Source: a virus
IMG/VR virus record: IMGVR_UViG_3300023234_000009
Location: 1 to 22,178 of that record
Length of the DNA stretch: 22,178 bases
Direction: 5' to 3' (one strand)
The notes under the pieces were generated by a model. It saw nothing but the letters and a program-made list of their open reading frames with translations. It ran no database searches and was not told where the DNA came from. Position numbers and translations under genes: made by a program. Position 1 is the stretch's first letter. Each line of letters opens with the position of its first letter. Below are positions 6,276-22,100 of this stretch, one piece after another.

Positions 6276-6476
6276 TTATTTTTTTACTAACAAAATTCTC
6301 ATCAGTATTTCTGGTCCAAGGGTAAGATCATTATCCAACGCATCTAAAATTATATCTTTATAATTTTTATTTGTGATTTCAACTTTTATTTTGGAATCTA
6401 ATGCCTTATACCAAAAACCTTCTGTTTCTTCAATTATAGTAAAGTATTTTGTTTCTTTTATTAATCTTCTTTTCAT
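6276..6476 (-). CDS. Small protein of unknown function (66 aa)
   Basis: Not recognised. The sequence opens MKRRLIKETKYFTIIEETEG, continues with a beta-like WYKALDSKIKVEI and ends in a hydrophobic helix (GPEILMRILLVKK). Its ATG overlaps the stop of the sigma-like gene by four bases (ATGA), so the two are likely translated together. The 10-base gap to the next gene and uniform direction support an operon. Confidence 0.55.
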   Translation of the reverse strand: MKRRLIKETKYFTIIEETEGFWYKALDSKIKVEITNKNYKDIILDALDNDLTLGPEILMRILLVKK

Positions 6477-7012
6477 ATCTCATCTATTATTTTTTTAATC
6501 TGTTCCTTCAATTCACTAAATTTAGCAATGATAGTTGGTTTCGGTATTTCACTCTCCATACCAATTTTCTTAAAACTATACCCTGGTGTCTGTATCTTAC
6601 GATCCAAGTAGTCCATATAAACAATCTTATATACAAAAAACTCATCTATTCTATCAAGTGCCAATTCTATATCTGCTAAACATAAATTTTCATCATACTC
6701 ATCTCCATCTGTTATATCTATCTTATCCATATTGAAGTTTTTATCAAATGTGATCTTATTATATTTCCAATTGTAAGGACTGGTCTTACTAAAACAATTT
6801 ATCTTAAACATGCTCATTATATATTTATATGCCTGTCCATCATCTATTAATCTTGTAGATTTTTTAGTATCCATCATTAAAAATTGAATCAACACCTCGT
6901 GGAATATATCACTCCACTCTGGTATATTCTTTATCAATTCCAATTTTTCCTTTAATATAAAATAATTATCACTTATCCAAACTGATGGACTTAACATACT
7001 TATATCTATCAT
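6473..7012 (-). CDS. Sigma-70-like phage protein whose start codon lies in the repeat array
   Basis: A 179-residue protein. Residues 35-85 resemble sigma region 2 as found in Bacteroidota phage proteins: DIFHEVLIQFLMMD, DDGQAYKYIMSMFKINCFS, then KTSPYNWKYNK. Residues 115-170 resemble region 4, with an acidic helix (ADIELALDRIDEF), YKIVYMDYLDRK and a putative HTH (YSFKKIGMESEIPKPTIIAK). Such proteins are thought to direct RNA polymerase to phage promoters. Oddity: the first seven residues (MIDISML) are the same as those at the head of the upstream cassette ORFs and of the large terminase, and come from the repeat; divergence begins right after (SPSVW). Met6 could be an alternative start. Assignment is by motif pattern only. 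Confidence 0.6.
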   Translation of the reverse strand: MIDISMLSPSVWISDNYFILKEKLELIKNIPEWSDIFHEVLIQFLMMDTKKSTRLIDDGQAYKYIMSMFKINCFSKTSPYNWKYNKITFDKNFNMDKIDITDGDEYDENLCLADIELALDRIDEFFVYKIVYMDYLDRKIQTPGYSFKKIGMESEIPKPTIIAKFSELKEQIKKIIDEI

Positions 7013-7271
7013 TTTTTATATTCGTAAAGAGTTGAGTTGGAAATCTACCACCTTTAAACTTTTGTTTATTTTTATCACTACTCATCAAATTACTATCACT
7101 ATTGTAATTTTTAATATATCTTTTTAATCCCTTTAAAGATGTTTCTAAATCTTCATCACTAATATAATCAACCCTATTCAATTCAACACTTATCAATTTA
7201 GGAGATATTCTTAACATACTTAAACAATTCTTTTTTGTTGTTGGTAAATAACTGGGTTGGAAATCTACCAT
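6969..7271 (-). CDS. Cassette ORF 6: constant head, variable core, constant GRFPTQLFTN tail (100 aa)
   Basis: The product begins with a divergent leader (MVDFQPSYLPTTKKNCLSML), then the constant head RISPKLISVELNRV, a unique core (DYISDEDLETSLKGLKRYIK, about 45 residues) and the constant tail GRFPTQLFTNIKNDRYKYVK, ending SISLDK. The last 44 bases overlap the start of the sigma-like gene in another frame. The 5' end lies inside the preceding cassette's tail. Compared with cassettes 1-4 the leader is altered because the junction repeat here has diverged. No function known. The head and tail resemble the boundaries of the variable segment of phage adenine methyltransferases. It may be a translated peptide or a non-expressed cassette. 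Confidence 0.5.
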   Translation of the reverse strand: MVDFQPSYLPTTKKNCLSMLRISPKLISVELNRVDYISDEDLETSLKGLKRYIKNYNSDSNLMSSDKNKQKFKGGRFPTQLFTNIKNDRYKYVKSISLDK

Positions 7272-7443
7272 TTTTACAATAATTCATAATTGTTTTTGAT
7301 CCATTCAATCTTATTAAATTGGTAGTATCTGTTGTTGGTTTTCTTGTTTCAACATAATCACCAATCCTATTCAAATCAACACTAATCAATTTCGGCGATA
7401 TTCTACAAAACATAAGTCTTAACTTTTTTTCTTTGTATATCAT
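7198..7443 (-). CDS. Cassette ORF 5 (81 aa), overlapping the terL 3' end
   Basis: It starts inside the 3' end of the large terminase gene in a different frame (MIYKEKKLRLMFC), then shows the constant head RISPKLISVDLNRIGDY, a unique core (TRKPTTDTTNLIRLNGSKTI) and a tail variant GRFPTQLFTNNKKELFKYVK. The tail differs from the other units (NNKKELFK instead of IKNDRYK), so this is a diverged copy. The 41-base overlap with terL means the repeat supplies the last terL codons. Function unknown; see cassette ORF 6 for the family resemblance. Confidence 0.5.
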   Translation of the reverse strand: MIYKEKKLRLMFCRISPKLISVDLNRIGDYVETRKPTTDTTNLIRLNGSKTIMNYCKNGRFPTQLFTNNKKELFKYVKNIS

Positions 7444-8746
7444 AATACATTCTCATCATAATCATATCAGCATAATCTGGACTTCTTCCAATCGTTTTCT
7501 TTACCTTATCTTTACCTTCCACCGCTGTCTTACCAATTTTATCTACATTCGCCATTCGGTGTGCTTGAAGTTCTTGAATGATCACATCACGATATTCTCC
7601 ATCAGGTAGTTTTATATTATTAATTGATTCACTCAACTTAAAAAAACATTGTGATCTTAAATTCATATAATTTTCTTTATTCAAAGCAGATGAACCACCT
7701 TTAAAAGCAACACACCCCTTTAAGTAATCTGCCACTCCTATACCTAATCCATCAGCATCAATCAACACATTTTTAATAGGCACTCTATATAGTTTTATTT
7801 TATCTTTAATTATATTCACTAATTGTGTAGTGTCATTTTTCTTATAACTAAAAATTTTTAGTAACTCTGTTCCACTCCATAAACCAATTACAGATTTATC
7901 ATTACCAATATTAGCAACATCACAAGTTATATATTTATCACCTGGTAAAGGATCATTATAAAAACTTTGTAGTAATTCATCATAACTAAACAGAGCAAGA
8001 TCATCATCGTCATAATCCCAGTTGCCATATAACAATCTGGATTTATTCACACTGGTTAAAGTTTGTTCCAATCCATCAATATAACTTTTATCTAAATATG
8101 GATTGTCTTGTGGGAGAGCAAGAACTATTTTTCTATAAAGTGGTAATTCGTTTTCAGTATATGGTTTGTAGTAATCTGTATATAACCAACCCTTTGAAGG
8201 ATTAGATACTAATAACAATTTAGGTATTAGTTGATATTCTTTTAACATATGGGATAATCTGGTCATTAGTTTTTCAATTGCATCTCTACTAATCTGGGAC
8301 ACCTCATCTACAATAGCAAAGGTTAAAGATAAACTCATAATCCTTTCAAAATTAGGATCACTTGGGTTTGATGTTAATTCAATTAAGAATAACTTACTAC
8401 CATTATTAAATGATATTGTCTTCTCCATTCTATTGAATCTGTAATCAACATCTTCCTTCATATCATTTAATCTAAAAAATTCCATTAAAGTTTCTACTGT
8501 GGTCATCTTCAAAGAACTTAAAGTTTCCCTACATAAACCCCCAGCGATGTTAGGATACATTAAACAATAGATAGTCGCCCAGGCAACGGCTAAGTATGAT
8601 TTACCACTCCTTACTGAACCACCAAAGAGTATCTGTGTAGTAGTAGTATCAAATAACAATTTCCATGCTTCATATTGTATTAAAGATGGTTTAAATGTTA
8701 ATTCTTTTAACTTAGGTGATATTCTTAACATACTTATATCTATCAT
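7403..8746 (-). CDS. terL: Terminase large subunit
   Basis: A 447-residue packaging motor ATPase/nuclease that threads DNA into the prohead and cuts it. Seen: Walker A GGSVRSGKS (residues 42-50), Walker B LTFAIVDE (141-148), a coupling motif LLVSNP (178-183), and an RNase-H-like nuclease with CDVANIGNDKS (Asp276), LIDADGLGIG (Asp330/332) and RSPDYADMI (Asp424/427). Length is normal for the family. Oddity: the first 13 residues (MIDISMLRISPKL) come from the array repeat and match the heads of the cassette ORFs; the family-typical start is at about residue 14 (KELTFKPSLIQYEAW). The 3' end runs into another repeat head. The gene thus sits in the array like a very large cassette, and no portal gene follows it within the window. 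Confidence 0.96.
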   Translation of the reverse strand: MIDISMLRISPKLKELTFKPSLIQYEAWKLLFDTTTTQILFGGSVRSGKSYLAVAWATIYCLMYPNIAGGLCRETLSSLKMTTVETLMEFFRLNDMKEDVDYRFNRMEKTISFNNGSKLFLIELTSNPSDPNFERIMSLSLTFAIVDEVSQISRDAIEKLMTRLSHMLKEYQLIPKLLLVSNPSKGWLYTDYYKPYTENELPLYRKIVLALPQDNPYLDKSYIDGLEQTLTSVNKSRLLYGNWDYDDDDLALFSYDELLQSFYNDPLPGDKYITCDVANIGNDKSVIGLWSGTELLKIFSYKKNDTTQLVNIIKDKIKLYRVPIKNVLIDADGLGIGVADYLKGCVAFKGGSSALNKENYMNLRSQCFFKLSESINNIKLPDGEYRDVIIQELQAHRMANVDKIGKTAVEGKDKVKKTIGRSPDYADMIMMRMYYDIQRKKVKTYVL

Positions 8747-8945
8747 TTTTTATGTTAGTGAAGAGTTGAGTTGGAAATCTGCCAGTCATATAACTTGGTA
8801 TTAGTTTTTCACAACTGATAAAGTTTTTAACCTGATCACTTTTTATAGTATCATTGATTATTCTCTTCTCTTCATAATCTCCAATCCTATTCCCATTTAT
8901 GTTTAGTAGTTTAGGTGATATTCTTAACATACTTATATCTATCAT
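8712..8945 (-). CDS. Cassette ORF 4 (77 aa), directly upstream of terL
   Basis: Head MIDISMLRISPKL is constant, followed by a diverged segment (LNINGNRIGDYEEKR), a unique core (INDTIKSDQVKNFISCEKLI) and the constant tail GRFPTQLFTNIKNDRYKYVK ending NIT. Its last 35 bases are also the first 35 bases of terL in another frame, so ribosomes finishing this ORF would be placed at the terL start. NGNRIGD resembles the DGGRIG-type sequence that opens the variable segment in phage methyltransferases. Whether the peptide has a role of its own is unknown; one plausible job is translational coupling. Confidence 0.5.
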   Translation of the reverse strand: MIDISMLRISPKLLNINGNRIGDYEEKRIINDTIKSDQVKNFISCEKLIPSYMTGRFPTQLFTNIKNDRYKYVKNIT

Positions 8946-9153
8946 TTTTTATATTGGTGAAGAGTTGAGTTGGAAATCTACCATTCTTTATATATCCTTG
9001 TTTCCCTCCATACCCTTTACCACCACCATATATATTATCATTACCAGTAAATTCTTTTCTTATACAAGTATCTCCAATTAGTTCAGTTCCAACCCTATTC
9101 AATTCAACACTAATCAATTTAGGTGATATTCTTAACATACTTATATCTATCAT
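8911..9153 (-). CDS. Cassette ORF 3 (80 aa)
   Basis: Head MIDISMLRISPKL then ISVELNRVGTELIG, a Gly-rich unique core (EFTGNDNIYGGGKGYGGKQG) and the constant tail GRFPTQLFTNIKNDRYKYVK. The core style (RVGTE..., then Gly/Asn-rich, then GRFP) is close to the internal variable segment of phage adenine methyltransferases, where the text usually reads IDGCRIGTE ... GRFPAN. It overlaps the neighbouring cassettes by 35 bases at each end. No independent function can be assigned. Confidence 0.5.
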   Translation of the reverse strand: MIDISMLRISPKLISVELNRVGTELIGDTCIRKEFTGNDNIYGGGKGYGGKQGYIKNGRFPTQLFTNIKNDRYKYVKNIT

Positions 9154-9346
9154 TTTTTATATTCGTAAATAACTGGGTGGGAAATCTACCAACTTCATTA
9201 GTCCAATTACTTATATCCCTTGTTCCCCACATAGTTGGGTTTTGGACCACTGGTATATTTCTTTTTAATATATCATTAGTTCCAACCCTATTCAATTCAA
9301 CACTTATCAATTTAGGAGATATTCTTAACATACTTATATCTATCAT
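9119..9346 (-). CDS. Cassette ORF 2 (75 aa)
   Basis: Head MIDISMLRISPKL and ISVELNRVGTND are constant with cassettes 1 and 3. The unique core (ILKRNIPVVQNPTMWGTRDI, then SNWTNEV) is unrelated to the others by eye. The constant tail GRFPTQLFTNIKNDRYKYVK follows. Both ends overlap the adjacent cassettes by 35 bases. The sharp change from near-identical flanks to an unrelated core suggests core exchange or strong core diversification rather than simple drift. Confidence 0.5.
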   Translation of the reverse strand: MIDISMLRISPKLISVELNRVGTNDILKRNIPVVQNPTMWGTRDISNWTNEVGRFPTQLFTNIKNDRYKYVKNIT

Positions 9347-9536
9347 TTTTTATATTCGTAAATAACTGGGTGGGAAATCTACCTTCTGGATTTATCTTAA
9401 CTGGTTCTAATCTTTTTCCATCTGGTTTTTCACCTACACTAAAACTATTACCCTTTGGACCATTTTTGTAATTGTAAGTATCATTAGTTCCAACCCTATT
9501 CAATTCAACACTTATCAACTTTGGACTGATTTTCAT
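9312..9536 (-). CDS. Cassette ORF 1, first of the array (74 aa)
   Basis: The product opens MKISPKLISVELNRVGTND, without the MIDISMLR leader of the later units, as expected if this is the first copy. The core reads TYNYKNGPKGNSFSVGEKPD then GKRLEPVKINPE, followed by GRFPTQLFTNIKNDRYKYVK. The KGNSFSVGEKPDGKRLEP core is the clearest match to the variable segment of phage adenine methyltransferases, which often read GNSFG.EKPDG before GRFPAN. This is therefore probably a detached methyltransferase module. Resemblance is from memory of the family, not an alignment. Confidence 0.5.
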   Translation of the reverse strand: MKISPKLISVELNRVGTNDTYNYKNGPKGNSFSVGEKPDGKRLEPVKINPEGRFPTQLFTNIKNDRYKYVKNIS

Positions 9537-9812
9537 ACTTTGAATTTATTTTTAATTGTTGTAAAAATTTCTTAAAGTGTTTATCACAATTTCTTTTCTT
9601 TTTCTTTTTATCATATTCTATTTCTATCTTCAAAATGTTTAATTCTTTTTTATCCTATATTTTTTTATATCATTTACATATTCAATATATTTATAATTTA
9701 ACCCAACATCTATTAAAGTTTTTTCTGTAAAATACTTTTTTATATGTTTGAAATAATCTTCCTTACACATTGTCTCCATACCATTTAATTCTTTTTTGTC
9801 CTATATCATAAT
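9537..9812 (-). other. Decayed region with methyltransferase 3'-end copies and a 46-aa ORF
   Basis: This gap holds no recognisable intact gene. A 46-residue ORF runs 9779-9639 (METMCKEDYFKHIKKYFTEK, ending YRIKKN). Its start lies in an exact 39-bp copy of the methyltransferase 3' end, and its end lies in a weaker third copy (about 9637-9662). Beyond it an ATG-less frame encodes a Lys-rich stretch (HFKKFLQQLKINSKYENQ) that runs into cassette 1. The picture is of repeated duplication and decay. Confidence 0.5.
9774..9812 (-). repeat. Exact second copy of the 39-bp methyltransferase 3' end
   Basis: Positions 9774-9812 and 10296-10334 are identical over 39 bp. In the upstream copy this DNA encodes the methyltransferase C-terminus (YDIGQKRIKWYG). 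The downstream copy is fused to the array core at 9811, so it is a non-functional duplicate. The two copies bracket the 162-residue gene. Confidence 0.9.
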
Positions 9813-10301
9813 TTAGGTGATATTCTTAACATACTTATATCTATCATTTATTATTTTTAAATATGGTTTAACCACATTATCAATATACAACAATTCCAAA
9901 TTCTTTATTTCTTCTAATGTGAGCAATTTACCTATTCTTATACCAGCAATAAAAGGATCAGGTATTCTATGTGATAGAGCTATTTGTATCACAAGTTCTT
10001 GTTTTTCAATTGAATTATTTTTATTTGATTCTGTGTCTATATAGATATATCTTATACAATCAAAATAATAAGGTAGTTGATTATCATATCCATAAATAAC
10101 ACAATTCTTTACAAATTTATTAAATTCTTCATCTTCTACATCATTATCATCTTTCAATTCAATTATCTTTCTAATAAAGTAATTTATATAAGTTTGATGA
10201 ATACTTGAATTATTATATAGATATAATAATTCTTCTTTATTTATTTTTTCCATATCATTATTTATTTTTTCCATATCATTATTTATTTTTTTTATCTCCA
10301 T
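9813..10301 (-). CDS. Protein of unknown function (162 aa) with repeat-derived ends
   Basis: Not recognised. The N-terminus has a short tandem repeat (KINNDMEK twice, then KINKEE) encoded by a 21-bp DNA repeat. The middle is helical (IHQTYINYFIRKIIELKDDN, NKFVKNCVIYGYDNQLPYYF), followed by ELVIQIALSHRIPDPFIAGI. The C-terminus (NDRYKYVKNIT) is the same as the cassette tails because the array core repeat supplies it. The first 23 bases overlap the methyltransferase 3' end. It is bracketed by 39-bp direct repeats of that 3' end, suggesting insertion by recombination. It could be a passenger gene of the same process that built the array. Confidence 0.6.
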   Translation of the reverse strand: MEIKKINNDMEKINNDMEKINKEELLYLYNNSSIHQTYINYFIRKIIELKDDNDVEDEEFNKFVKNCVIYGYDNQLPYYFDCIRYIYIDTESNKNNSIEKQELVIQIALSHRIPDPFIAGIRIGKLLTLEEIKNLELLYIDNVVKPYLKIINDRYKYVKNIT

Positions 10302-11241
10302 ACCATTTAATTCTTTTTTGTCCTATATCATAATAGTCTTTATTCAATTCACAACCATAGATATTATCTGTATTATAACCAGCTTTAATTAATCCACATA
10401 CTTCACTCCCACTCCCACTAAATGGAACATATACTTTTTGATTAACAATTTCAGGTAATTTAAACAGGGAACTAATTTCATATATTAAGTTGATTGGTTT
10501 AAGTGTGGGATGTATATTGAGTTGATTATCAGTATCTTCTGTTATATGATTGTTCCTTTCCTTCTTACCAACCTTAGGACAATAGTTCAGTAAATCTACA
10601 CCTTCACTCCACTCCATTATATCATCCAATACAGATTTATTCTTTGTTGGTTTAGAAAAAACACAGATAGTTTCTACCATTTGTTTTAGGGGAGCCTTGG
10701 AGTATTTGTATCCATCAAAGACTTTTGATAAAGTTGATGCTGGTTCTGTTATATCCGTGTAGGTGTTTTTACCACCAAGTGTTAGTGGCTGGTTTCCTTC
10801 GCAGTTTGGTCTCGCGTTTGGATTTGGTCCAACCACTTCCCTCTCCTTTTTCAATCTCTTATCAATCATCTTACCAGCATCAGTGGCCTTTGGAAAATTT
10901 GAAACGAAATACCAATATAAAGATTGGTTTATATCAAAACCATTTTTAGTAGCGTAGTAATGAAGTGGTCCCAATTGACGATCCATACCAAACATTAGTA
11001 AATATCCACCGTGTTTTAAAGTTCTAAATGATTCTTTAAAGAATAAATCTAAATCTGTATGTGTTAGTCCGTCCCATTTATTCATAAAATCACTGGACTT
11101 ACCTTTAATTTTATATTGTCCGTCATTATCAACGAACCAAGTTGAACCCAACTGGTATGGAGGGTCAGTAAGTATCGTATTAAAATAGTAATCATAATAA
11201 GTTTTTATATCATCAAAAACATTTTCATTTCTTATATTCAT
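10279..11241 (-). CDS. DNA adenine methyltransferase, beta-class (motif IV before motif I)
   Basis: A 320-residue SAM-dependent DNA methyltransferase. Seen: catalytic motif IV TDPPYQLGS (DPPY at residues 26-29), SFRTLKHGGYLLMFG (motif V-like region), MVETICVFSKPT, LLNYCPKVGKKERN, HPTLKPINLIYE (motif X-like), and SAM-binding motif I VPFSGSGSEV (about 272-281) followed by NIYGCELNKDYY. DPPY with this order indicates N6-adenine (or N4-cytosine) methylation, beta-class. It probably protects phage DNA from host restriction; no cognate nuclease is visible. Oddity: relatives I know often carry a variable insert (IDGCRIGT ... GRFPAN) before the NYCPK motif; here SEGVDLL runs straight into NYCPK, while the cassettes downstream carry just such inserts. 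Confidence 0.9.
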   Translation of the reverse strand: MNIRNENVFDDIKTYYDYYFNTILTDPPYQLGSTWFVDNDGQYKIKGKSSDFMNKWDGLTHTDLDLFFKESFRTLKHGGYLLMFGMDRQLGPLHYYATKNGFDINQSLYWYFVSNFPKATDAGKMIDKRLKKEREVVGPNPNARPNCEGNQPLTLGGKNTYTDITEPASTLSKVFDGYKYSKAPLKQMVETICVFSKPTKNKSVLDDIMEWSEGVDLLNYCPKVGKKERNNHITEDTDNQLNIHPTLKPINLIYEISSLFKLPEIVNQKVYVPFSGSGSEVCGLIKAGYNTDNIYGCELNKDYYDIGQKRIKWYGDKKNK

Positions 11242-18353: not shown

Positions 18354-19064
18354 TTATGCTGATGCTAATGTCCAGGTTGAACCACTAATATAAACATTAT
18401 ATAAAACTCCATCTGTATTATATATTTGTAATCCATCTATCGTTCCTGGGTCAGTTGATAATAAAAGTTTCGGTATTGTTAAAACTGGTGTATCATAAGT
18501 AAATCCAGCATCACTTGTTATACCACTTAAAGTTCCATCTACTCCATCTGTTCCACTTGTCCCTGCTGCTCCATCTGTTCCACTTGTCCCTGCTGCTCCT
18601 GTTGTTCCATCTATTCCACTTGTCCCTGCTGCTCCTGCTGCTCCTGTTGTTCCATCTGTTCCACTTGTCCCTGCTGCTCCTGTTGTTCCATCTGTTCCAC
18701 TTGTCCCTGCTGCTCCTGCTGCTCCTGTTGTTCCATCTGTTCCACTTGTCCCTGCTGCTCCTGTTGTTCCATCTGTTCCACTTGTCCCTGCTGCTCCTGC
18801 TGCTCCTGTTGTTCCATCTGTTCCTGCTGCACCTGCCACTCCTGATGTTCCACTTGTGCCTGCTACTCCTGATGCTCCATCTACTCCTGATGTTCCACTT
18901 GTGCCTGCACCACCACCACCACCAATAAGATTTACTTTAAGTGCTGCATTTACTGGATCATATACAGTGTTAATTACATCTGCTGCTGATCCATAATCAT
19001 ATACATTAAGAGTTTCACCTGAATATACGTTGTTTAATATTTTTGTTGTTGAATAATATCCCAT
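18354..19064 (-). CDS. Short collagen-like fibre protein (236 aa)
   Basis: Residues 1-50 are an N-terminal attachment part (MGYYSTTKILNNVYSGETLN). Residues 50-175 are Gly-X-Y triplets (GTS, GTD, GTT, GAA), including three 27-residue repeats encoded by an 81-bp tandem DNA repeat. The C-terminal 55 residues (SGITSDAGFTYDTPVLTIPK, then a Gly-Leu-Gln-Ile and Asp-Gly-Val-Leu-Tyr stretch) resemble the modules seen twice in the larger fibre. The start is supported by AAAGGA about 7 bases upstream. The protein probably trimerises into a thin fibre or decorates the tail; the repeat copy number may vary between isolates. Confidence 0.8.
   Translation of the reverse strand: MGYYSTTKILNNVYSGETLNVYDYGSAADVINTVYDPVNAALKVNLIGGGGGAGTSGTSGVDGASGVAGTSGTSGVAGAAGTDGTTGAAGAAGTSGTDGTTGAAGTSGTDGTTGAAGAAGTSGTDGTTGAAGTSGTDGTTGAAGAAGTSGIDGTTGAAGTSGTDGAAGTSGTDGVDGTLSGITSDAGFTYDTPVLTIPKLLLSTDPGTIDGLQIYNTDGVLYNVYISGSTWTLASA
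18570..18815 (-). repeat. 81-bp tandem repeat in the short collagen-like gene, about 3 copies
   Basis: The triplet order GTT GAA GAA GTS GTD GTT GAA GTS GTD recurs three times in a row (the third copy has GID once), giving an 81-bp DNA period. The bases are almost identical, so slippage or recombination should change copy number in frame. Ends are approximate. Confidence 0.8.
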
Positions 19065-19140
19065 TTTGTTCCTTTTGTTTTTTTAGTTAAACACAATCTA
19101 AAGATTGCGAACTTACTTATATATATAAAATGGTTAGTTT
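19065..19140 (-). promoter_or_regulatory. Candidate promoter before the short fibre gene
   Basis: On the minus strand CATTTTATATATATAAGTAA lies about 55-70 bases before the ATG, followed by a small CAATC/GATTG hairpin and an A-rich leader with AAAGGA. The motif matches the TATATATAAG seen elsewhere in the window. It lies just after the long fibre gene's stop. Confidence 0.4.
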
Positions 19141-22100
19141 TTAAATATAAACTCTTTCAACCCACCATTCTACTTTTTCTATATTAATTGTTCCTGATAA
19201 GCCGGCATCTACATAAAGATAGATATAATTTCCACTTGTAATCCATCTACTATTAATTATCATCATATTATATGTTCCTGATGCTGAAATTGATCCACTA
19301 TCAAGATATTTTCTTTGATATAAAGCAGTTCCAGTTGATCCAGTTCCACCATATATACTAAAATGCCAAACTGGCATCGGGTTTTGATCTAAAAACCTAG
19401 CATCAAAATTAACTTGAACTTTGTAATTACCAGAGTTCGCTACATAGATCCCATCATTAGTATTGTTATATGCTAAATCACCATAATCAATATGGTTATT
19501 TGATGAACTCAACATAGTAACTTTTTGTTTAGTTCCAGCTGTTATATCGAAAGATTGTGATAAAGTATAACTACCTACTCCAATATATTCAACTACACCA
19601 TCTCCATCTGATCCTGATGTTCCACTTGATCCGTCATCACCACTAGTTCCTGATGTGCCATCTGTCCCTGATGTTCCATCTGTTCCTGATGTGCCATCAT
19701 CACCACTTGTTCCTGAAGTTCCAGTCGCACCATCTGCTGCACTAATAGTTATTAAATCATCCAACCAAGTTAAAGTTATATTATCGCCCTCCTTGATACT
19801 GGCTGTGTCTCCTGCTGTTATATCACTTGATCCTATTTCAATCCCTGAACTATTTAATGCTCTATAAGTCCAACTACTATAATCATCTCCATCTGTGCCT
19901 GATGTTCCATCATCACCACTAGTTCCTGATGTGCCGTCATCACCACTTGTTCCTGATGTTCCACTTGGTCCTGTTGGACCTGTTGGACCTGTTGGACCTG
20001 TTGGGCCTATTGATCCTGTTGATCCATTTACACCACTAGTCCCTGATGTTCCGGCACCAGCATTAATAGTTATTAAATCATCCAACCAAGTTAAAGTAAC
20101 ATTTGTCCCCTCTTTGATACTGGCATAATCATTTGAAGTAATTATACTATGTCCTATTTCTAATCCTGAACTATTTACTGCTCTATAATTCCACCCATCA
20201 TAATCTTCACCACTGGTTCCTGATGTTCCTGAAGCATCTACTCCATCTGTTCCTGATGTTCCGTCATCACCACTAGTTCCTGATGTTCCTGAAGCATCTA
20301 CTCCATCTGTTCCTGATGTTCCATCATCTCCTGATGTTCCTGATGTTCCTGTTGCACCTACACTACCATCTTGACCGTCTGTTCCTGATGTTCCTGAAGT
20401 TCCAGAAGCACCTACACTACCATCTTGACCGTCTGTCCCTGATGTGCCATCATCACCACTAGTTCCTGAAGTTCCAGAAGCACCTACACTACCATCTACT
20501 CCATCTGTTCCTGAAGTTCCATCATCACCAGAAGTTCCATCTGTGCCTGATGTGCCTGTTGCTCCACTATCGGCACTAACAATTATCATATCATCTAACC
20601 AAGTTAAAGTTATATTATCACCTTCTTTAATACTGGCTGTATCACCTGCTGTTATGGTGCTTGAATTTATTTCAAACCCACCACTATTTATTGCCCTGTA
20701 AGTCCAACTATCATAATCATTACCACTGGTTCCTGATGTTCCTGATGCGTCTTGTCCATCTGTTCCACTTGTGCCACTAGTTCCTGTTACTCCTATTGAA
20801 CCATCTTGGCCGTCTGTTCCTGATGTGCCATCATCACCACTAGTTCCTGAAGTTCCAGAAGCACCTACACTACCATCTTGACCGTCTGTCCCTGATGTTC
20901 CACTTGTTCCTGTATTTCCTACTGAACCATCTTGTCCATCTGTTCCACTTGTTCCTGATACTCCGTCTGTTCCTGATGTTCCACTTGTTCCTGTATTTCC
21001 TACTGAACCATCTTGTCCATCTGTCCCACTTGTTCCTGCTACTCCGTCTGTCCCTGAAGTTCCTGTATTTCCTACTGAACCATCTTGTCCATCTGTCCCA
21101 CTTGTTCCTGATAAACCATCATCACCACTTGTTCCTGATGTTCCTGCTACTCCACTTGTTCCTGCTACTCCGTCTGTTCCTGATGTTCCGTCAGTTGATC
21201 CTGTATTACTAAAAACAACTCCACTATCTGTATCGATATATAAGTTATTGAAGTTAGTGTGATCCGTTGCTCCTGTGGTTCCTGTTAAAGTTAAGAAAGG
21301 ACTATAAAGTATATCATTTGTAAAATATAAATCTACATCAAAAGTAGAACCGGTTAATCCGTCTGTGCCTGATGTTCCTGTTCCGCCATTTACTCCTGAA
21401 GTGCCTGATGTTCCATCTTGCCCATCTGTTCCACTTGTGCCAGCAGTTCCATTTCCATCTAACCCATCTGTTCCTGATGTGCCATCTGTTCCTGAAGTTC
21501 CTGATGTGCCTGTTTCACCTGTTCCTCCACTATTGGCATAAACATCACCATTTTCTTGATCTATAAACAATCCATAATAATTTGATGGGTGAGATGTAAA
21601 TTCAGTCGTTCCTGTTAAATTAATTTCAGGTGTGTATAAAACATCATTTAAGTAATAAAAATTACTATCAGTAGTAATTCCAGTTAAAGCACCATCTGTT
21701 CCGTCTGTTCCTGAACTACCTGATCCTCCGTCTGTTCCTGATGTTCCACTTGTTCCGTCTGTGCCTGATGTTCCACTTGTTCCATTTGTGCCTGAACTAC
21801 CTGATGTTCCATCTGTTCCACTTGTTCCATCATTACCTGCTGGACCCTGTCCTCCATCATCACCACTAGTTCCTGATGTTCCTGATACACCACTAGTTCC
21901 TGATGTTCCACCTGCTGGTCCTTGTGGTCCATCTGTTCCTGATGTTCCTGATACTCCGTCTGTTCCTGATGTTCCACTTGTTCCTGATACTCCGTCTGTT
22001 CCTGATGTTCCACTTGTTCCTGATGTTCCACTTGTGCCGTCTGTTCCATTTACTCCCGAAGTTCCTGATACTCCGTCTGTTCCTGATGTTCCTGATGTTC

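Follow-up and report, generated by a model that had tools for sequence, protein, structure and literature searches.

A phage DNA methyltransferase gene followed by an array of putative detached target-recognition segments

Introduction

What is encoded by a row of small phage genes that share both of their ends and have unrelated middles? The question is raised by a 22 178-nt stretch of viral DNA (positions 1–22 178 of the IMG/VR record IMGVR_UViG_3300023234_000009), referred to here as the window. A sequence-only reading had placed an array of such genes at 6990–9849 and had described them as cassettes of no known kind. The array itself is real, but these limits left out the gene that is key to it, that of a DNA methyltransferase (MTase) at 10279–11241. 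The units appear to be the target-recognition (TRD) segment of this enzyme, detached from it and present in several versions, a likeness that the first reading had missed. All of the loci considered below are metagenomic contigs.

Results

Organization of the array

Six ORFs of 74–100 aa with common heads (ISPKLISVELNRV) and tails (GRFPTQLFTNIKNDRYKYVKN) lie on the minus strand from 9536 to 6969, and their cores comprise 31–40 residues. The features of the region, in the order of the minus strand, are:

10279..11241, minus strand: beta-class N6/N4 DNA methyltransferase, 320 aa; PF01555 E = 2e-12, phrog_67 7e-25
9813..10301, minus strand: ORF162; no family match; inserted between the MTase and the array
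9809..9857, minus strand: seventh copy of the junction repeat (family D2, 94%), at the 3′ end of ORF162
9312..9536, minus strand: putative TRD unit 1, 74 aa; constant head and tail, open core; among the top 35 of the TRD-segment HMM (see below)
9119..9346, minus strand: putative TRD unit 2, 75 aa; 35-nt overlap with unit 1; TRD-segment HMM
8911..9153, minus strand: putative TRD unit 3, 80 aa; 35-nt overlap with unit 2; TRD-segment HMM
8712..8945, minus strand: putative TRD unit 4, 77 aa; 35-nt overlap with unit 3; TRD-segment HMM
7403..8746, minus strand: terminase large subunit gene; PF03237 1e-9
7198..7443, minus strand: putative TRD unit 5, 81 aa as listed; TRD-segment HMM
6969..7271, minus strand: putative TRD unit 6, 100 aa as listed; TRD-segment HMM
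6473..7012, minus strand: downstream gene; start within the unit 6 tail; same gene order in L055 and L037

Unit 5 likely starts at the M before FCRISPKL, and unit 6 at the M of MLRISPKL, which gives a 20-nt overlap with unit 5. The six units are not contiguous, the terminase gene splitting the array 4 + 2 between units 4 and 5. Copy-to-copy spacing is 193–220 bp (about 193–208 bp in the sequence-only reading), with 1514 bp where the terminase intervenes. The 49-bp junction repeat is present in seven copies in the window, not six. At most unit junctions, start and stop overlap by exactly 35 nt when counted from the first ATG, or 20 nt from the second (M.(R/K/N)ISPK). In five related loci (L004, L005, L008, L009 and L010) the stop of the MTase gene overlaps the first unit by 20 nt as well; the window differs in that ORF162 and two small ORFs lie between the MTase gene and unit 1. 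No terminator-like site was found between units, promoter-like sites were not in excess of those in shuffled sequences, and an Rfam search returned no RNA family.

A unit head (MIDISMLRISPKL) also forms the beginning of the terminase gene, which shares 35 nt with unit 4. A gene for a D12-class adenine methyltransferase (PF02086 3e-21), found at L004:7432-8571 and L010:1292-2431, likewise starts with a unit head (MNNISMSNISPKLIDQ). The terminase gene is a whole gene caught in the unit junctions; that for the D12-class enzyme looks as if it had been caught in the same way. The product of 6473..7012 has no significant family match and is sigma-like by position. At the other end, 40 nt of the 3′ end of the MTase gene (10295–10334) recur at 9773–9812, after ORF162. 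With its end in a unit tail and the 40-nt border copy behind it, ORF162 resembles an insertion that duplicated its border.

The array was also found in four other metagenome contigs, three of which are identical to the window across 8.7–12.0 kb, while the fourth has one mismatch in 11.4 kb. It is therefore not an assembly artefact, as had been considered at the outset, and this lineage has undergone no rapid shuffling. Among named phages, those of Flavobacterium, Cellulophaga and Bacteroides have the closest terminases, which makes a Bacteroidota host probable. Elsewhere in the window, a NUMOD4/HNH endonuclease gene at 1166–1798, on the plus strand and thus opposite to the surrounding phage genes, possibly encodes a homing endonuclease, and the collagen-like GTSGTDG repeat proteins at 18354–22049 are probably tail fibres; like repeats occur in L006, L046 and L056.

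Constant ends and open cores

That constant ends enclose unrelated cores was confirmed by aligning the six units at the DNA level. Mean pairwise identity is 0.81 in the head and 0.86 in the tail, as compared with 0.546 in the core; codon-shuffled cores give 0.535 ± 0.034, and 0 of the 15 core pairs lie above this null by 3 sd. The cores are nevertheless coding: over 30 units their 1121 codons include no stop, while the other frames contain 82 and 263. Strong purifying selection acts on the tails, pS and pN in GRFPTQLFTN being 0.65 and 0.026 within the window and 0.56 and 0.035 over the 30 units. A core common to L005, where it is the single unit, and to the array of L009 has 12 synonymous and 4 nonsynonymous codon differences. 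The open cores, the selection, the fixed overlaps and the absence of terminators fit small proteins that are co-expressed but translated separately.

The GRFPTQLFTN codons differ strongly between units at synonymous sites, whereas the junctions are more alike, so that movement also involves whole units, from one junction to the next. The first reading had proposed that cores are exchanged through their flanks, which describes one swap seen between L010 and L004 (see below) but not the movement of whole units. Two cores that are otherwise different, those of L009:7049-7303 and L004:6992-7264, have the same last part, KLKYTTEFRE, a hint of recombination within cores.

The catalytic chain

The 320-aa protein encoded just upstream of the array scores 47.9 bits against PF01555 (cut-off 26.7) and holds both catalytic motif groups in one chain, DPPY (motif IV) at residues 26–29 and PFSGSGS (motif I, F.G.G) at residues 273–279. 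It has no recognition segment at about residue 208–218. The AF2 model of this TRD-less chain reached a pLDDT of 81.5 and a pTM of 0.75, and its best Foldseek match was CcrM–DNA (6pbd, E = 1e-11); M1.HpyAVI and the MboIIA and PvuII methylases were also matched. Two loops of the model are of low confidence, one in variable region 1 (147–157) and one at the excision point (208–218). Variable regions 1 and 2, at about residues 139–164 and 231–241, are two more hypervariable segments with sharp borders. They are swapped between MTase genes that are otherwise 97–100% identical, and may carry part of the specificity. A search of genome contigs with the MTase yielded one distant Clostridia enzyme, without an array.

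The units resemble the segment that the enzyme lacks

In this class of enzymes the order is motif IV, TRD, motifs X and I. Single-chain homologues carry, at the place of the gap, the pattern NID.CR(V/I)-core-GR(F/W)PAN, which in seven single-chain phage homologues takes the form GTG(A/G)(I/L)NID.CR(V/I)-core-GR(F/W)PAN between a KP..V..NV and a YC.KA block. In the array-linked enzymes the segment is cleanly absent from the region between these blocks, and the window MTase and its eight array-bearing relatives (9/9) all lack it. The position of the gap, taken with the order of the class, identifies it as the target-recognition position. The fused relatives L046 (498 aa) and L048 (528 aa) have SSCLNIDGERV-core-GRFPSQLLVDE followed by DLIKYQPKVSKSERN in one chain, L046 being 55% identical to the window MTase in its N-terminal part; in the split enzymes LDDIIEWSE runs directly into VDLLNYCPKVGKKERN. 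An RFP-like motif occurs in 59 of 59 single-chain viral homologues without internal stops, and the full pattern fits 55 of 61 enzymes (L046 and L048 included), with cores of 29–55 aa and a median of 36. The cores of all units measure 28–51 aa.

A profile of the embedded segments (TRD-segment HMM) was built from 53 sequences, without the units, L046 or L048, and run against 388 ORFs drawn from the window and seven loci. All 35 units came out on top (E 5e-5 to 0.4), and the best of the 353 other ORFs had E = 2.3; the units are mutually related, so that p-values from this ranking overstate, but the separation of units from non-units is itself complete. When the GRFP end was removed from the profile, 28 of the top 35 ORFs were units. 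Conversely, an HMM of the units found L048 and L046 at 2e-5 and matched the other single-chain enzymes almost always within the segment, and BLASTP aligned units with L046 over their full length (2e-7 and 6e-7).

One unit provides a direct match to an embedded core. The core of L009:7486-7719 (GSETISTHKAPVGTFAGGDADRGSDTSNYFNHQ) is 70% identical to that of L135 over 33/33 aa, boundary to boundary, with a score of 53.9 bits as compared with 24.6 for the best of a 20-fold shuffled set. At the DNA level the two cores are 60% identical, with 19 synonymous and 10 nonsynonymous codon changes, while the flanking DNA is only 29–36% identical. L135 is the enzyme of a GC-rich, unrelated phage, and the free core comes from an AT-rich one. 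The end-to-end match indicates that the boundaries of a unit core are those of a TRD core.

With the single-chain enzymes, heads and tails share no more than two short motifs, correctly spaced, and E-values for single units are weak; hhalign of the unit alignment against the seven single-chain enzymes gave a match of 13 columns only, and the AF2 model of fused L046, made from 10 sequences, was poor (pLDDT 41). The units had no meaningful match in Pfam, PHROGs, NCBIfam or PADLOC. Taken together, the sequence comparisons give good support to the view that the units correspond to the detached TRD segment of the upstream MTase.

Relatives and cassette turnover

Eight related contigs carry the same MTase followed by 1 to at least 9 units, each locus with cores of its own; arrays with other unit numbers or cores were what the sequence-only reading had proposed to look for in metagenomes. 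L005, L006 and L007 have a single unit each. Across 11 loci there are 31 core types (two partial), and wherever a locus is long enough to judge, the units lie near the MTase gene.

Gain, loss and swap of cassettes, for which the sequence-only reading had suggested comparing related strains, can be seen between near-identical phages, in which cassettes differ in number, order and type. A 2124-bp stretch that spans the terminase gene and the units behind it is 99.2% identical in L008 and L010, and the identity begins exactly at a junction, ATATAAAAAATGATAGATTTAAGTATGTC; upstream of it L008 has five units, and L010 has two other units and the D12-class gene. In L010 as compared with L004 (96.4% over 4.1 kb), the first unit after the terminase has a different core and the same GRFP tail DNA. 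The block order is T6-MTase-T7-T8-D12-TerL-T9 in L004, T7-T8-D12-TerL-T18-T19-T20-T24-T25 in L010 and T13..T17-TerL-T18-T19-T20 in both L008 and L011. L055 (3924–7191; terminase 68% identical) has TerS, TerL and the next genes in the same order, without MTase and without units, and thus represents an empty locus.

Free-standing units were found in none of the other loci examined, outside this group. The remaining matches of a GRFPTQLF pattern scan of viral contigs were chance frames or unrelated, and tblastn with five units against named phages and with one against plasmids returned either nothing or matches at chance level (E 3 or more).

Discussion

We consider it likely that these loci encode a split, multi-specificity phage MTase, in which one catalytic subunit is served in trans by TRD peptides, from 1 to at least 9 of them, each translated on its own. 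The 320-aa protein would be a complete catalytic core that has lost its target-recognition segment, and each unit would be that segment as a separate protein of 72–90 aa, its constant head and tail docking on the catalytic core and its variable core of 28–51 aa reading the DNA sequence. Given the single strand and the overlapping stop and start codons, the genes are probably on one transcript and the peptides would be made together and take turns on the single catalytic subunit. We infer that each core confers a different specificity, so that phage DNA would be methylated at several motifs and thereby protected from several host restriction enzymes, evasion of restriction being the presumed purpose. 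Loci with a single unit (L005, L006 and L007) would be simple two-part enzymes, and arrays would supply several specificities at once. Cassettes would be gained, lost and swapped by homologous recombination at the junction repeats, lineages keeping different sets. Such a holoenzyme, composed of a catalytic subunit and an evolvable set of exchangeable, separately translated peptides of about 75 aa whose genes come and go like beads at short junction repeats, is in our view the probable arrangement.

Other readings have to be weighed against this one. The units might be a silent store of spare TRD segments that are copied into the MTase gene to alter its specificity, as in hsdS shuffling loci, and the constant flanks, the turnover of cassettes and the cassette-like manner in which variable regions 1 and 2 are swapped within the MTase gene would all be in keeping with the store that was first proposed. 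However, none of the nine linked MTases has a segment to replace, and there is no expression site; the units are open, under purifying selection and each provided with its own start and stop in a fixed overlap, and the lone unit of three contigs would be useless as a store. No recombinase was seen among the searched ORFs of the window, which is a fragment of the phage genome. We thus regard a store as improbable, although the units may recombine into enzymes elsewhere. It also seems unlikely, if a little less so, that the units, although derived from TRDs, serve a different purpose, for instance as decoys or inhibitors binding host restriction sites or host methyltransferases, and that the linked MTase works without them. 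The catalytic core is indeed predicted to fold without the segment, and variable regions 1 and 2 could provide specificity. Against this, the part missing from the MTase is precisely the unit, the first unit is tightly linked to the MTase gene and overlaps it in five loci, and the units stay near it wherever the contig is long enough to tell.

The constant overlap and the same relative frame from each unit to the next may also suggest that programmed frameshifting fuses the units into one many-TRD polyprotein, a multispecific single-chain enzyme. This is very unlikely, since an ATG is conserved at each unit start and the chain would include the terminase gene. Hardly credible is the alternative that the sequence-only reading had kept in reserve, a decaying array of tandem duplicates, which would here be the remains of a broken MTase. 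The tandem layout, the short overlapping ORFs and their fragment-like length recall such a remnant; yet stops are absent from the cores, purifying selection acts on the tails and on one shared core, the cores are unrelated rather than drifting, the junction geometry is fixed and the array is kept in about ten distinct contigs. CRISPR and integron were rejected, the cores being open coding frames apparently homologous to TRDs and no Cas or integrase gene being found among the window ORFs searched. As first reported, no reverse transcriptase, integrase or Cas gene is present among the ORFs searched in the window, itself part of a larger phage genome. On comparison with diversity-generating retroelements, which are marked by a reverse transcriptase, a template repeat and adenine-directed changes, the cores are wholly different, not point-mutated.

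The proposed split MTase shares features with several known systems. Single-chain phage beta-class MTases (PF01555, phrog_67), such as those of Bacillus phage BSP18 and Microcystis phage Mel-JY01, have the same fold and motif order and the same segment, with constant ends and a variable core of 29–55 aa; there, however, each enzyme has a single, embedded segment, whereas in the present loci it is detached, with 1 to at least 9 copies. SPR, phi3T and H2I encode, according to the account in PMC8936443, multispecific cytosine-5 methyltransferases with several TRDs and one catalytic core. These are of the C5 class with tandem TRDs in one polypeptide, and the present enzyme is of the N6/N4 class with TRDs as separate ORFs. 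M.AquI and M.EcoHK31I are natural split methyltransferases made of two separately encoded polypeptides (PMC3404938). Their enzyme parts are encoded by adjacent genes, a likeness to the 20-nt MTase/unit overlap of five loci, but their catalytic motifs are divided between the partners, while here a single chain keeps them all and the TRD alone is separate, in many versions.

In Lactococcus plasmids, Type I HsdM acts with several HsdS subunits in trans (PMC3138775), and in both cases several exchangeable specificity subunits may share a single catalytic partner. HsdS is, however, a bacterial protein of about 400 aa with two TRDs and conserved regions, as opposed to single-segment peptides of about 75 aa arrayed in a phage; the units (72–100 aa) have a single core and no family match. 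The phase-variable hsdS locus tvr of pneumococci has TRD cassettes beside a methyltransferase gene, with repeats at their ends (PMC6265443), but there a recombinase joins TRDs into one expressed hsdS, whereas the window shows neither an expression site nor a recombinase. Orphan TRD2 homologues of a Type IIB S subunit have also been reported (PMC9159934). In none of these known systems is a single catalytic chain accompanied by a series of free TRD peptides, and the open-access literature searched contained no account of such an array.

If the proposed split MTase is real, the specificity of a DNA-modifying enzyme would reside on a detachable peptide, about 75 residues long and with a variable core of 30–50 residues, many such peptides being in use at once. 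This would represent a new architecture for the escape of phages from restriction, and the arrays would record in nature which specificities are important to a population. It would also offer a modular tool, in which the swap of a small peptide changes the methylated motif. The core found free in an AT-rich phage and embedded in a GC-rich one provides a testable case of beta-class specificity segments moving between phages.
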